Part shown: positions 57,575-64,000 of the stretch, piece after piece | How the letters are laid out: every line of letters begins with the position of its first letter | Numbering within the stretch: the first letter of the stretch is position 1 | Assembly (NCBI RefSeq): GCF_000739655.1 | Contig: NZ_BATR01000010.1 | Location: forward strand, 1-64,000 | Direction: 5' to 3' | Origin: Verrucomicrobium sp. BvORR106 | GTDB lineage: Bacteria > Verrucomicrobiota > Verrucomicrobiia > Verrucomicrobiales > Verrucomicrobiaceae | DNA: 64,000 nucleotides | Program-made: the position numbers and the translations under genes | The notes under the pieces: model-generated | Databases searched by the model: none | Told to the model about the DNA's origin: nothing | What the model saw: only the letters and a program-made list of their open reading frames with translations

Positions 57575-58645
57575 TCACACAACCCTGCCAGCGGAGGGTA
57601 CAAGCCCCTGCCGGGGCGCTCTAAATGTGAACAGGCCTGCAAAACTCCCACCCCGCATCGGTCGAGCCCCTCGCTTGCGTCGCGCATCCAAATGCTGACG
57701 CTGACTCTCGAACAATCCTTCCAAATAACTACGACTTCCCAGTGCGACGCCACGCGTGAAGTAAGTCACTTTACAACGCAGTGTCTCTTGCAGCGTCAGC
57801 ACCCCTTGCCCCCTACGCACCTGTTCGACTGCCTCTCGTTTCATCCCTTTGCGCAACACCTTGCTGTTCGCGCCATCCCCGCTACGTGACTCCTCTCCTT
57901 GGCCGAAGAGCCAGACCCGATAGCCCGCTAGCACCTTGGCTTGCGATGGCATTCGCTGGACAACCTGATTCTTCTCATGCTGTCGTTGATCCCGCGTGAC
58001 GACGAATAGTGCAGACAAGGCTTTGCGACCGCCCGCCACTGCCTCGGCATAGCTGCACCAACGGTAGTCTTTGGGATCGCTCACCATCCCCGCACGCACG
58101 GGATTGAGATCTATGTAGGCACTCATCACAGATAGCGCAGCTTGCTCCCCTTCCAGAAGAACGCTGGTGAAGCGCTGCTCCCACAAAGTGCCTTTGCGGT
58201 TCTCCCGCTTGTTGAACCAGAGGCTGAAACGCTGCTTCAGCTCCTTCATGAACTGGCTCACATCCCACATGCGCGCCAAGTACTTCTCCTTAAACTCCTC
58301 GGCCGCCTGATCGTGCCCCTGTGTGCGGAACGTCTCCAGTGTCTCCTTGATCATCCTCACCGCTGGCTTGGAATAGATGAACGCCACTTGCTTCAACACC
58401 CATTCATCCGAATACGCCGTGCCTTCCGGCCGCTTCTGAACCTCCACCATGATATGGAAGTGGTTGGACATGACACAATAGGAGAGAATTCTCACCTGGC
58501 AAAAGGACTCGTAGGCACGCATGAGCCTCACAAACTGCTCCCGCTCCTCGTCCAAGAACGCAAACCGCCGATCCACCACCCTGGAAATGCAGTGGTAATA
58601 TGCAACCGGAGCCAGTTCATTGGCAAAAAATCGAGGAGACGCCAT
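57575..58645 (-). mobile_element. REP-associated tyrosine (Y1) transposase, RAYT/IS200-like
   Basis: The product has 356 residues from ATG 58645 (MASPRFFANELAPVAYYHCI); 58678 is an alternative start. Y1/HUH catalytic elements: the HUH motif in VMSNHFHIMVEVQ (about 66-78) follows the strand of YCVMSN, and the catalytic Tyr candidates lie in SAYIDLNPVRAGM and DPKDYRWCSYAEA, ending the core at about 195. The C-terminal extension (residues about 200-350) has a helix set VLRKGMKREAVEQVRRGQGV and a basic end ARRKRGARPMRGG. RAYTs are domesticated, single-copy relatives of IS200/IS605 transposases that cut and spread REP palindromes. REP-like hairpins lie in this window. No terminal repeats of an ordinary insertion sequence are seen. 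Confidence 0.85.
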
Positions 58646-58698
58646 GCCCGACTGTCCAGTGCAATTTTGATTCGTCAACCACCTTTCTCACCAATAGC

Positions 58699-59010: not shown

Positions 59011-59523
59011 TCATACGGCAAAGTCTTTAAATTTATTAAAACATAGGCTGGAACTCTCAATAGTGGAGTACACTGCTTCGTGAAAAGCAACCACCATAGC
59101 ATCCAACTCTGGATTTACTTCAAAAAATTCGAAGACGTTAAATGTGCCTGAACGTTTATCGACAACAGTGATAAGGCGATTCCGTGAATTGACGTCATAG
59201 ATTCTAATCGCACTTTTTAGACGAGAAATTCCCCATAGTTTTTCGCAAAGTGCCGCCGTCTTGGTCTCATCTAAGATTAATTCCACTGAGAATTGCTCCC
59301 TCGGAAATTGATTTCTCAGGATATAGCAAAATCGACGCTCCACTCCCTTTTTTGAAATTTTTTCTATCCACATATGTTCCGTAGTGGCGGGGCGGCCCGC
59401 CGATTGGCAAAACACCGCGAATTCCACCTTACTCCATTTTGCGGCTTCAAAAAGAAGCGCTTGGGCCAATTCTTCTTTGGGCATTCCGAGAAGAAGTCTT
59501 TTAATTGTTGAAGCTAAGCTCAT
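59011..59523 (-). CDS. Candidate cognate immunity protein of the RHS toxin
   Basis: The product has 170 residues from ATG 59523 (MSLASTIKRLLLGM), 2 bp after the stop of the RHS gene; its ribosome site overlaps the RHS gene end, indicating translational coupling. No signal or membrane segment, as expected for a cytosolic immunity protein. Helical N-terminus KEELAQALLFEAAKWSKVEF; then strands in HMWIEKISKKGVERRFCYIL, FSVELILDETKTAALCEKLW and IRIYDVNSRNRLITVVDKRS, with a final helix AMVVAFHEAVYSTIES. DNA here is markedly AT-richer than the RHS core. Not related to known families by eye. Immunity role is inferred only from position. Confidence 0.7.
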   Translation of the reverse strand: MSLASTIKRLLLGMPKEELAQALLFEAAKWSKVEFAVFCQSAGRPATTEHMWIEKISKKGVERRFCYILRNQFPREQFSVELILDETKTAALCEKLWGISRLKSAIRIYDVNSRNRLITVVDKRSGTFNVFEFFEVNPELDAMVVAFHEAVYSTIESSSLCFNKFKDFAV

Positions 59524-59525
59524 GG

Positions 59526-62500
59526 TCACCTTGCACACCCTCCTACAGGTCTACCCAAAATTTCAGCTATTGTGGCTGCACTCTGGATATTTTTGTTTGC
59601 GTGATAAAGATATCCTGCTGCATGCCGGGTGAACATGTCGTTAAACTCGATCGCATTTACCACCCCCTTGATCGGGTTGCCCGTTCCCCAAGTTTCAGCT
59701 ACAATCTCTTCAAAAAATGCATATTGCGGCGAATTTCCGCTGTGATACAGATCCCAAGATCGGCCCCCGGTTGCCTTGTCAAGAAAGCGATGGACACTTT
59801 CATGCCTCGCAGTGGCGGTCGCTATTTGCGGATTTTGATTAAGCGGATTGGCAGTATTGAGGTAAATCGGCCTACTCTCAATTTCGCGACCATACCTGCC
59901 AAGAACCGTCGGATTGTCCCACATATCGACTTCGACAACGTTGCTCGGTCTGGACAACCATGGTGACGCAGCAAAACGCGATTCGCTATTTGCCATCCCC
60001 AGAACGGTTGAAGTGCGGCTAGCTGCGACCGGCATACTGAAGAAACCCCGTCCAGAATAGATGCCAAGTGTCCCCTCAAGAAAATGAGCTGAGAAATCTG
60101 CTACTTCAGGAGGGACATTCGCAATTTTTAGCCCGCTGCTTATCATGCCATGTGTTTGAGTATTAACAGGTATGCCAGTTCGCATTGTCTGCCAGTTTGC
60201 CTCCCAAGAATCTTTGGCATGTGCGATTATTGCAATACCAATAGCTGCACCAATTCCCGTTTCTCCAGTTCCCAAGGCAATCAGTCCGCCTCCGGTCGCC
60301 TCCGCGACGGAGCCAACGAGACCGATGCCCGCTACTACCCGTGGCGGGAGAGGGGGAATCTTGGCCTCTCGAAAAGCTCTATCAAACTCCGTACCAGGAG
60401 CAAATTGGGGATTGCCGGTAGTCACATATGGATGGACCCACATCTCCCTCCCTGTGGGATCTACCGCATTCACCGGATCGCCACCCACCATATCATACAG
60501 TCCCATACTGGCCCCATGCCCCATTGGGTCAGGAGAAATGAACCTCCCATCCACCGAGTCGTAGTAACGGGCCCCGAGATAATAAAACCCGGTCGCGTCC
60601 ATCCGTTCGCCACGCCAGTTGGTGGATTGCGCCACCGACGCACCATGCGCCAAGGTCACCACGGGGCTACCGGGCTGAGGCCCGTAGGAAGCACAGCGCG
60701 TAACCTGCCAGCTTACGGTGGTGGTGACACCCCCATCCACCGTGGCCACAACGTGGCCGTAGTAGTCATCCACCACCGCAGTCCAAGTGCCTGCAGCTTC
60801 GTCCACCGTAGCCTCGAATCCGCCGATGCCCTGGAGACCGCCATAGCTGCCATTGGCATCGGGACCATGCACCTTCCAGGTGCGCTTGCCATCGGCACCG
60901 CCGATTTTCGTCTCCACTGCGACCTCCAAGAATTCATGGAGCGGGTCATACCAGGAATCTTCCTGAACGGCATCGCCCACAACTCCACCGAAACGGACGA
61001 TCTGAGTGACCGAGCGAAGGCGGCGACCGAGTCCATCGTAGCGGGCCTGCCAGTTGATGCCATGCTGGTCCGCATCGCGATCTGTCACCGCAAGAAGTCG
61101 TCCCAGCCCGTCCCAGGTGAGCACCTGAGTGCGCCCGCTCAGACTCCAGGAGCGCTGGATGACGTTGCCTTCTTCATCATAGGTATTGCTGACTTGCTCC
61201 TCCAGCCGGGCCAGACTGAAGTTGCTGGTGGCACTGGTGCTGAAGGTTCCGCCGGGATGATGGGCGGTGGCTTCCAGGCTGTGATCCCCCGGCCAGAGAC
61301 GCAAGGGCACACTCCAGTTCCCCACCGGGTGCTGCCAGCCTGGGTGACTGACATTGGGCGAAGAGCCCACCTTTTCGATACTGGCCGTCACTGAGGCCGC
61401 GCCAAAGGCGTTGCCCGTGGCGTTGATGTCATGGACCTTCTCGTTGCTCTTCTGCCGCAGGACACGGGCGAATTTGTTGGTCGCGCCCGTGTCTCCCGGA
61501 GCCACGTAAGAGCGGAAGTCCGCCGTGGGGCTGCTGCCTTGCGTGGCGCTGGTACGGATACCGAGACCCGCGAAACCAAAGTCATACTGGAAGCTGAGGT
61601 TCTGCGCGACGCCGGTGACGGGTGTGTAGGACTCTGAAACCAGACGACGGCGCTCCACATCATAGCCGTAGTAGCGGGCATCTGTCTGCGCGGCTGGTCC
61701 ACCCGGCAACGCCGCGCGAGACGCGACGTAGCTGCTCTGGCGGTTGTCATCCAGCCAAGTCAGAGTTTCCTGCAGTAGAGCCCCGGGAAGACCCACCACG
61801 CTGGTGGTGGCCTGAGTGAGGCGACCACGATTGTCCCGCTGATTGACGACATAGCTCCGCCATGGGTTGGAGCGACCGGTGATGAGCCCGTTGTTGGCGT
61901 AGCTGTACTCAAACACCTTGCCATCCGCGGTGACACTCTTCAGAGCGCCATCCGCCTGCCAGGCGAAGGCGAACGACCCACCAGCGCCGGCACCCAGATC
62001 GGCAATGCTCGAGCCTTTCTCCAAAGAAGAGCGTCGGCCCGCGGCGTCGTAGCCATTGGTCAGATGGCGGATGACCGTGCCATCCAGAGAGACCGTCTCC
62101 GAGGTGACACGGGTTTGCGCGTCGTAGTCCCGGTGCACGATGGTGTAGCCATCTCGAGTGTCCTCGCGGAGATCGGTGACCAGGCTGCGCGGGTCATCGT
62201 AGGTGAAGGTGCGCACGACATGGTCGTCCTGACCGGAGGTGCCACAGGTGTAGGTCTGGACGCGACGCCACTCATCATAGACATAAACATGGCTGCGGAA
62301 GCCACTTGTTGTGACCTGCTGCTGATAAGACTGCAGGAGCCCGGCGTCCTTGCCCGCATTCGCCGGGAAGTAGACGTAGTTTGTCTGCTCCCGTGTGGAG
62401 GTGCCGTCACCTGCCTTGATCGATTTGGTGACCAAGCGTCCTGAAGAGTCGAGACGCTGATACTCAATGAAGCCCCCTTGCACCGGAGCCAGTGCACTGC

Positions 62501-64000
62501 TGGCAGCCGGGCTGGGCATGCGTTTCTCCACCACCGTACCGAGAATGACATCCGCAGGCGACGGGGAAACCACCACACCACTCCCCTGAGTGACATAGGC
62601 ATAGTGCATGGTCACCTGAGCCCCATCCGGCAACACGGTGGTGCGGGGCCGATTGGCCCCATCATACGAGGTGGTGGTGGTCGTTGTCTCGAACCCGGCC
62701 ACGCCATTGAGATTGGCCGCAGTGTGTGCAGCCACAGCATTCCCCGCAGCATCGTATTCTGTGCGACTGAATGAGCCACCAGGATTGATGGCCAGTACAC
62801 CCTTGCCCGCGTTGTCGGTATAAGCCGTCGAACTGATGGCCGTGGCGGTATTGGCCACGCCCGAGGTGGTCGTCACCCCATGCTGTCCCGCAAGATAGAC
62901 GATGCTGGACTCCTGCACGACGGTCTGATTGGCCTCACGCACCTGGGTGCGCACGGGGCGACCGAGCGCATCATGCTCCGTCACCGTACGCTGGCCCAGA
63001 GCATTCTCTGCGATCGCCACCACACCCGCGGCGTCATAGATCTGGCGGGAGGCCAGAAGCGCTGGGTTGGGATCACTGGCGGCCTTGGGTTGGAAGGCCT
63101 CCAGCGGACGCCCCACCTGGTCATAGGTGCTGGTCACAATGTTGCCGGCTGCATCCGTGGCGCTCACCACCTGACCGCGGCTGTTGGCGGTAGTCACCTG
63201 GGGCTGCCCCAGAACATTGCCAGCGTAGTTCTTCAAGGTCTTGGTGACCTGACGCGTAGCGTCCTGATACTCATAGAGCACATAGGTGGAGGGACTGACC
63301 GGTTCTTTTTTGGTCCGACCATCCAGATAGTACTCCCATCCCAGCACCGTGCCGTCCGGGTTGTCCTGCTTCCACGGCTTGCCCGCCTGGGTGTGCCAGG
63401 TGGTGGTGACGCCTCCATTCGGTGCCTTAGCGGTGACGGACTTGTCCCGCGGTATGCCCAGGCCATCCAGCTCAGAGTTGTAGCTGGTGGATGACTTGGC
63501 GAGCATCGCGCCACCGTTTTCCCAGTCCCCTTCATAGACACGGCTCTCCGTAGGACGACCGGTGGCATCGTAGAACAGGCGGGTGGTATTGCCCCGCGGG
63601 TCCATGGTCTTGATCAGATCACCAAAGAGATTGTAGGTCTTTTTGACCGTGGCGTAGAGATCCGCACCGGGCACCTCTTCCACACCCGTACCGTCCGCCT
63701 TGGCCCGGCTGCGCCACATGACCTCCTCCACCACGCGGCCCATGCCATCATAGCGGGCATAGGTGAAGTCCTCGGGGGCGTAGCGCGGGCCATCCGTCCA
63801 CTCCACCTCGCCGTTCTGGTTGTAGTACACGTAGTTCCAGCCCTTCTGGACACCAGCGGCGTCGAGCCGCTCCTCCCAGATTCTGCGACCCATGTTGTCG
63901 TAGGCATAGCGGGTCTTGCGGCCCGCGGCATCCTCGGTCTCCTCCAGTTCCTGGCGGAGGTTGTAACGATAGCGGGTGATGACGTTGGGCGCGACCGCTT
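59526..64000 (-). CDS. RHS/YD-repeat polymorphic toxin with HExxH metallopeptidase tip (5' end outside window)
   Basis: The frame is open from the right edge of the window (64000) to the stop at 59526, at least 1490 residues; the N-terminus lies outside. The bulk is RHS/YD repeats (for example FYDATGRPTESRVYEG and TYDQVGRPLEAFQPK), which form a shell around the toxin. The conserved RHS end is present: GARYYDSVDGRFISPDPMGH and DPVNAVDPTG at about 60444. The variable tip is about 305 residues (59529-60443). It has a hydrophobic pre-toxin region (IGLVGSVAEATGGGLIALGT) and near the end the zinc motif HESVH in RHESVHRFLDKATG (59790-59804), with Glu candidates about 30 residues later (FEEIVAETW). 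It is thus a zincin-like metallopeptidase toxin candidate. The tip DNA is AT-richer than the core. Confidence 0.9.
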   Translation of the reverse strand, partial: AVAPNVITRYRYNLRQELEETEDAAGRKTRYAYDNMGRRIWEERLDAAGVQKGWNYVYYNQNGEVEWTDGPRYAPEDFTYARYDGMGRVVEEVMWRSRAKADGTGVEEVPGADLYATVKKTYNLFGDLIKTMDPRGNTTRLFYDATGRPTESRVYEGDWENGGAMLAKSSTSYNSELDGLGIPRDKSVTAKAPNGGVTTTWHTQAGKPWKQDNPDGTVLGWEYYLDGRTKKEPVSPSTYVLYEYQDATRQVTKTLKNYAGNVLGQPQVTTANSRGQVVSATDAAGNIVTSTYDQVGRPLEAFQPKAASDPNPALLASRQIYDAAGVVAIAENALGQRTVTEHDALGRPVRTQVREANQTVVQESSIVYLAGQHGVTTTSGVANTATAISSTAYTDNAGKGVLAINPGGSFSRTEYDAAGNAVAAHTAANLNGVAGFETTTTTTSYDGANRPRTTVLPDGAQVTMHYAYVTQGSGVVVSPSPADVILGTVVEKRMPSPAASSALAPVQGGFIEYQRLDSSGRLVTKSIKAGDGTSTREQTNYVYFPANAGKDAGLLQSYQQQVTTSGFRSHVYVYDEWRRVQTYTCGTSGQDDHVVRTFTYDDPRSLVTDLREDTRDGYTIVHRDYDAQTRVTSETVSLDGTVIRHLTNGYDAAGRRSSLEKGSSIADLGAGAGGSFAFAWQADGALKSVTADGKVFEYSYANNGLITGRSNPWRSYVVNQRDNRGRLTQATTSVVGLPGALLQETLTWLDDNRQSSYVASRAALPGGPAAQTDARYYGYDVERRRLVSESYTPVTGVAQNLSFQYDFGFAGLGIRTSATQGSSPTADFRSYVAPGDTGATNKFARVLRQKSNEKVHDINATGNAFGAASVTASIEKVGSSPNVSHPGWQHPVGNWSVPLRLWPGDHSLEATAHHPGGTFSTSATSNFSLARLEEQVSNTYDEEGNVIQRSWSLSGRTQVLTWDGLGRLLAVTDRDADQHGINWQARYDGLGRRLRSVTQIVRFGGVVGDAVQEDSWYDPLHEFLEVAVETKIGGADGKRTWKVHGPDANGSYGGLQGIGGFEATVDEAAGTWTAVVDDYYGHVVATVDGGVTTTVSWQVTRCASYGPQPGSPVVTLAHGASVAQSTNWRGERMDATGFYYLGARYYDSVDGRFISPDPMGHGASMGLYDMVGGDPVNAVDPTGREMWVHPYVTTGNPQFAPGTEFDRAFREAKIPPLPPRVVAGIGLVGSVAEATGGGLIALGTGETGIGAAIGIAIIAHAKDSWEANWQTMRTGIPVNTQTHGMISSGLKIANVPPEVADFSAHFLEGTLGIYSGRGFFSMPVAASRTSTVLGMANSESRFAASPWLSRPSNVVEVDMWDNPTVLGRYGREIESRPIYLNTANPLNQNPQIATATARHESVHRFLDKATGGRSWDLYHSGNSPQYAFFEEIVAETWGTGNPIKGVVNAIEFNDMFTRHAAGYLYHANKNIQSAATIAEILGRPVGGCAR
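60448..60560 (-). other. RHS core end / toxin tip junction
   Basis: The junction between conserved RHS core and variable tip lies at the DPTG codons near 60444. Sequence on the right (higher coordinates) has high GC and YD-repeat motifs; sequence on the left (lower coordinates) is AT-richer and unrelated. This is where homologous recombination exchanges toxin tips in polymorphic toxin loci. Confidence 0.7.

Follow-up and report, generated by a model that had tools for sequence, protein, structure and literature searches.

An exchangeable RHS tip, predicted to be a zincin toxin, with an adjacent candidate immunity gene, in Verrucomicrobium sp. BvORR106

The window analysed here is the whole stretch of 64,000 nucleotides at positions 1 to 64,000 of contig NZ_BATR01000010.1, and the locus that we describe lies at its end, on the minus strand (Table 1). 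A long frame with its stop at 59526-59528 includes RHS/YD repeats (Pfam RHS_repeat, 4.6e-24) and an RHS-associated core (TIGR03696, 4e-18) that ends in the DPxG form, here DPTG at 60450-60461, as had been read from the letters alone in the original prediction. The frame has 4,945 codons and runs past the window edge to contig position 74363. Outside the window it carries TSP3_bac repeats and DUF6531, with RHS repeats after them, downstream of a start that looks by inspection like a signal peptide, beginning at Met33 and coinciding with a hydrophobic peak. The core is followed by a tip of 308 residues (59529-60452, counted from the G of DPTG) and, 2 bp after it, by the 170-residue gene also reported before, with ATG at 59523 and stop at 59011. 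The core has a GC content of about 0.60-0.64, and the tip and the 170-aa gene are lower, at 0.42-0.49. Promoter, terminator and Rfam scans find nothing notable.

Table 1. Features of the RHS locus, in window coordinates.
Feature	Coordinates	Strand	Basis
RHS/YD-repeat carrier and RHS-associated core	60453..64000	-	RHS_repeat and TIGR03696 matches; candidate signal peptide at Met33
DPTGR, conserved core end and tip exchange point	60447..60461	-	identity to the G218 protein ends at R; DNA similarity ends at 60447
Pre-toxin module, Gly/Ala-rich, one hydrophobic stretch	60051..60371	-	common to the G480 RHS protein; hydrophobic peak
Toxin domain, predicted zincin metallopeptidase, 177 aa	59529..60059	-	effector-family profile match; model with motif helices
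HESVH, predicted zinc-binding and catalytic motif	59790..59804	-	in model helix 77-96; H, E, V, H invariant in relatives
EEIVAE, predicted third zinc ligand	59694..59711	-	in model helix 111-126; E, E, A, E invariant in relatives, as the scan pattern that recovered them already required
AGGAGGG, candidate ribosome-binding site of the 170-aa gene	59538..59544	-	sequence
170-aa gene, candidate immunity protein, predicted cytoplasmic	59011..59523	-	ATG 2 bp after the tip stop

The tip had been described as one AT-richer segment of about 305 residues unrelated to the core. The length and the composition hold, but the tip is composite, with a pre-toxin part of about 130 residues and a toxin domain of about 177 residues. 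The pre-toxin module matches an RHS protein of another genome (L071, G480:C57; 32%, E 1.5e-4), which after the shared module continues into an unrelated end and then into a 70-aa membrane-like gene. Because the module in that protein precedes an unrelated end, positions 60051-60371 are best read as pre-toxin, and the toxin proper as about 59529-60059. The toxin domain includes both the HESVH motif and, at EEIVAE, the downstream glutamates that had been picked out as candidates. In the 64 kb of the window, HExVHxF occurs once, against 0.01 occurrences expected; the longer pattern HExVHxF...EExxAE occurs in just one of 388 genomes of the phylum, the window's own.

We searched a 300-aa piece of the core against the 68 genomes of the family, and we find core homologues in seven of them, the window's genome included. 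A second member of the genus (G218) has a protein with 92.9% identity over 619 residues, an identity that ends exactly at the R of DPTGR, with the DNA similarity ending at 60447. Past that point, the G218 protein continues into an unrelated tip that by eye resembles an ADP-ribosyltransferase (LYHGT), and its next gene, of 142 aa, is also a different one. In the case of G066 (58% in the core), the tip has an LHH, and the next gene encodes an immunity protein of the SUKH type (Pfam SMI1_KNR4, 2.2e-13). Since G218 and G066 carry other cassettes there, the window tip and its next gene occupy a known toxin/immunity cassette site; the two differ within the genus and are exchanged together. This evidence is independent of the HESVH motif. 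Such comparisons of sequence strongly support that the window protein is a polymorphic toxin with an exchangeable end, and they agree with the proposal that the tip is the toxic domain.

Direct searches with the tip find no relative in Pfam, NCBIfam, PADLOC, PHROGs, PDB sequences, plasmids, IMG/VR, GTDB contigs or 289 genomes of the phylum, and there is no Pfam match even at E 10, Tox-MPTase and M78 models included. Relatives come from a motif scan over the GTDB species genomes using HExVHx(F/L)(F/L), a gap of 19-29 residues, and EExxAE. The scan gave 28 stretches, and 16 of them form a clear family with additional R, Y and S positions that are nearly invariant. Its hosts include Verrucomicrobiota, Planctomycetota, Proteobacteria, Myxococcota and others. 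One member, L027 from the Verrucomicrobiaceae, is an RHS tip, and others are shorter proteins that look like effectors. Among the members scanned, none has a Pfam or NCBIfam match above cut-off; L006 has a weak Tox-MPTase2 match (E 0.18), and L027 a weak Pfam M78 match (E 0.003). The other 12 of the 28 pattern matches (L007, L009, L012, L016-L020, L022, L025, L029 and L031) are non-members, most of them in frames that do not look real. L029, which looks like an ordinary zincin peptidase, was used as a control. We also discarded a weak match in G229, antisense to an unrelated gene, and the matches in G062 and G108, of which one is an SprT-like protein and the other falls in no gene that is credible.

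The tip aligns to the zincin effector family by hhalign with E 5.9e-6 and a probability of 85%. Against a profile of its four nearest relatives (L027, L006, L028 and L032), the tip scores 21.5 bits, a value that 5,000 shuffles with the motif residues kept in place never reach; the control L029, an ordinary zincin with the same motif, scores 11.4 bits. With the profile of the whole family, 36 of 5,000 such shuffles reach the score of the tip. The effectors of the family share with the tip the motif pair, the spacing and the helix order, and like the window tip they form the end of an RHS protein or another effector and have a small gene directly downstream. The differences are that identity to the family is only 21-29%, that the stretch between the motifs is about 5-6 residues shorter in the tip, that the tip lacks the nearly invariant R and Y, and that its next gene is unrelated to those of the relatives. 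We also reach a related tip by the RHS core, independently of the motif scan, in G556, which appears to be the L027 locus. That tip (L064) matches the window tip by blastp at 33% over 72 columns and has its own small gene at -4. From these alignments, the window tip appears to be a distant member of an uncurated zincin effector family, with weak similarity outside the motif. The relationship points to an enzymatic domain, and no curated family matches either the tip or the small protein convincingly, in keeping with the original prediction that both look unlike any family that can be named.

An AlphaFold model of the tip, built with 11 relatives, has a mean pLDDT of 59, rising to 79-89 around the motifs. 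It places HESVH inside a predicted helix and EEIVAE in the next long one, following two short strands. A PDB fold search with the tip model gives no informative match. The model of L027 is better (pLDDT 72 overall, about 90 over residues 20-60), and its structural neighbours, in the main zincins, are IrrE/PprI (Z 5.5), ArdC (4.3), Wss1 (3.8) and abylysin (3.1), followed by selecase (3.0), VgrG2b (2.8) and deuterolysin (2.4). Each of these matches is weak alone, but most of the neighbours are HExxH enzymes, which supports a zincin fold. The best of them, IrrE/PprI, belongs to peptidase M78, and the window tip itself, unlike L027, has no M78 match. IrrE/PprI proteins are intracellular regulators and not secreted effectors. 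The family relationship and the motif helices support the reading of the tip as a zinc peptidase, in which zinc binding and proteolytic activity are predicted properties.

The genes beside the related tips fall into more than one kind. The small genes at -4 of L027 and L028, whose phyla differ, are related to each other (32% identity, local shuffle Z 21.7), and within the order this type is present in the L027 genome only; because this pairing is conserved, it supports cognate immunity in the effector family. Most other relatives have a protein of 62-114 aa that starts from -56 to +7 after the zincin gene, and the 152-aa protein downstream of L024 looks like a doubled unit. A PepSY-like gene lies directly downstream of L005, L006, L008, L010, L011, L013, L014, L023, L024, L026, L030 and L032. 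Pfam PepSY matches two of 11 of these small proteins, with a best E of 0.002, and among PDB entries the small-protein profile best matches the PepSY propeptide belonging to an M4 peptidase (E 0.084). Metallopeptidases are accompanied by PepSY propeptides that inhibit them, and it is plausible because of this that the PepSY-like proteins may be propeptide inhibitors used as immunity proteins. We found no paper proposing this immunity type in the literature searched. The tips of L006 and L027/L028 are about 53% identical, and their small genes are unrelated (68-aa PepSY-like versus 153-158 aa), which suggests that the immunity type changed within this close group of toxins.

The 170-aa protein of the window is neither PepSY-like nor of the L027/L028 type. 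It has no Pfam match and no convincing family, and the gene is not one that is widespread without the RHS tip, as 289 genomes of the order, plasmids and IMG/VR yield no credible relative. Several candidates were rejected: apparent relatives in G578, G434 and G443 are unrelated frames, partly with stops; the L027/L028 small proteins can be aligned by eye, but have profile E 0.37 and shuffle Z 0.3 and 1.0; and a weak Cas2 match (E 0.008) covers about 55 residues and finds no support elsewhere. Judged from its position only, the protein is probably the immunity protein, as in the original prediction. We find in the protein no signal peptide, no lipobox, and no hydrophobic or membrane segment, which points to the cytoplasm as the place of the toxin target.

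The comparison with VgrG2b bears on that target. The VgrG2b C-terminal domain and PA0261 (Tpe-Tpi) form, like the predicted pair of the window, a gluzincin effector with a small immunity gene. That toxin rides on a T6SS spike, its site of action is the periplasm, and its immunity protein is exported, whereas the window has an RHS carrier and a 170-aa protein predicted to be cytoplasmic; we found no sequence similarity of the window tip to VgrG2b. A zincin toxin acting in the periplasm or on the envelope would follow the best-tested antibacterial zincin effector, whose immunity protein shares its place of action, the periplasm (PMC6899460), and would fit the resemblance of the L027 model to the VgrG2b effector domain. 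We regard it as unlikely for the window, given that VgrG2b-type immunity proteins are exported and the 170-aa protein has none of the corresponding signals.

The 170-aa gene could also be an unrelated passenger or accessory, with self-protection elsewhere or absent. Its lack of relatives and its unlikeness to the small genes beside related tips lean that way, as does the polymorphic toxin survey, in which the Tox-MPTase families appear with no immunity protein listed (PMC3482391). Against it are the gene's place 2 bp after the tip, its low GC shared with the tip, its exchange together with the tip, and the small gene conserved at -4 next to related tips in two phyla, and we find this explanation distinctly unlikely. 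Those families, Tox-MPTase1-5 (PMC3482391, Zhang et al. 2012), are HExxH zincin domains ending RHS proteins, as is the predicted domain of the window, with the difference that the window tip matches no Pfam model. That the zincin cleaves its own RHS protein, as a release peptidase and not a toxin, is very unlikely in our judgement: PVC-type metallopeptidases and other peptidases do serve as releasing peptidases in polymorphic toxins, but they sit N-terminal to the toxin (PMC3482391), and the window domain has nothing after it, is replaced as a unit by other ends at DPTGR, and brings its own next gene. Most improbable is that HESVH is a chance motif in some other, non-peptidase toxin: masking the motif residues leaves the tip with no profile signal, the tip model is weak, and the family scan required the motif, but both motifs lie in predicted helices in zincin order, no motif-keeping shuffle reaches the similarity that the tip shows around them to its nearest relatives, and the L064 tip was reached through core homology.

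A polymorphic RHS toxin with a zincin tip and a 170-aa immunity protein is then likely to be the best explanation of the whole. The RHS toxin would be exported by Sec from this Verrucomicrobiota bacterium, with the RHS repeats as carrier and the part after DPTGR as an exchangeable cassette, in which a pre-toxin stretch leads into a compact zincin domain. There, zinc would be held by both HESVH histidines and one glutamate of EEIVAE. Released into a neighbouring cell, the zincin domain would cleave a cytoplasmic protein, while the 170-aa protein would remain in the cytoplasm of the producer and block the enzyme. Most likely, then, the tip serves as a weapon against rival bacteria and works as a zinc-dependent peptidase.

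Among polymorphic toxins, those of zincin type have received comparatively little study. The locus adds a new and very divergent case of a familiar class of weapon, in which neither the predicted toxin nor the candidate immunity protein has close relatives in sequence, and it leads to what we find most interesting, a broad and uncurated zincin effector family with candidate immunity genes. We propose tentatively that the tip belongs to a widespread family of this kind countered by several unrelated kinds of immunity protein, mostly PepSY-like, and that the 170-aa gene may be a third, orphan type of inhibitor. If the PepSY-like genes neutralise the peptidases, immunity would have its origin in the propeptide inhibitors that silence secreted metallopeptidases.

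Other RHS proteins in the genus have tips of their own. A near-identical RHS tip with a Hint-like segment (CFAPGTPV...VHN) is present in three genomes of the genus (L038/L067 at G000:C19, L066 and L063), and no small gene is detected directly after it. The window's genome encodes another RHS protein (L068, G000:C88) whose tip differs and contains HEAGH; this tip may be a second zincin, and the gene after it, of about 200 aa, has a signal-peptide-like start. Downstream of the 170-aa gene, window positions 57575-58678 hold a gene that resembles a transposase, judged by eye to be of the REP-associated Y1 type, and this DNA is 80% identical over 550 bases to DNA on the other side of the G218 RHS gene.
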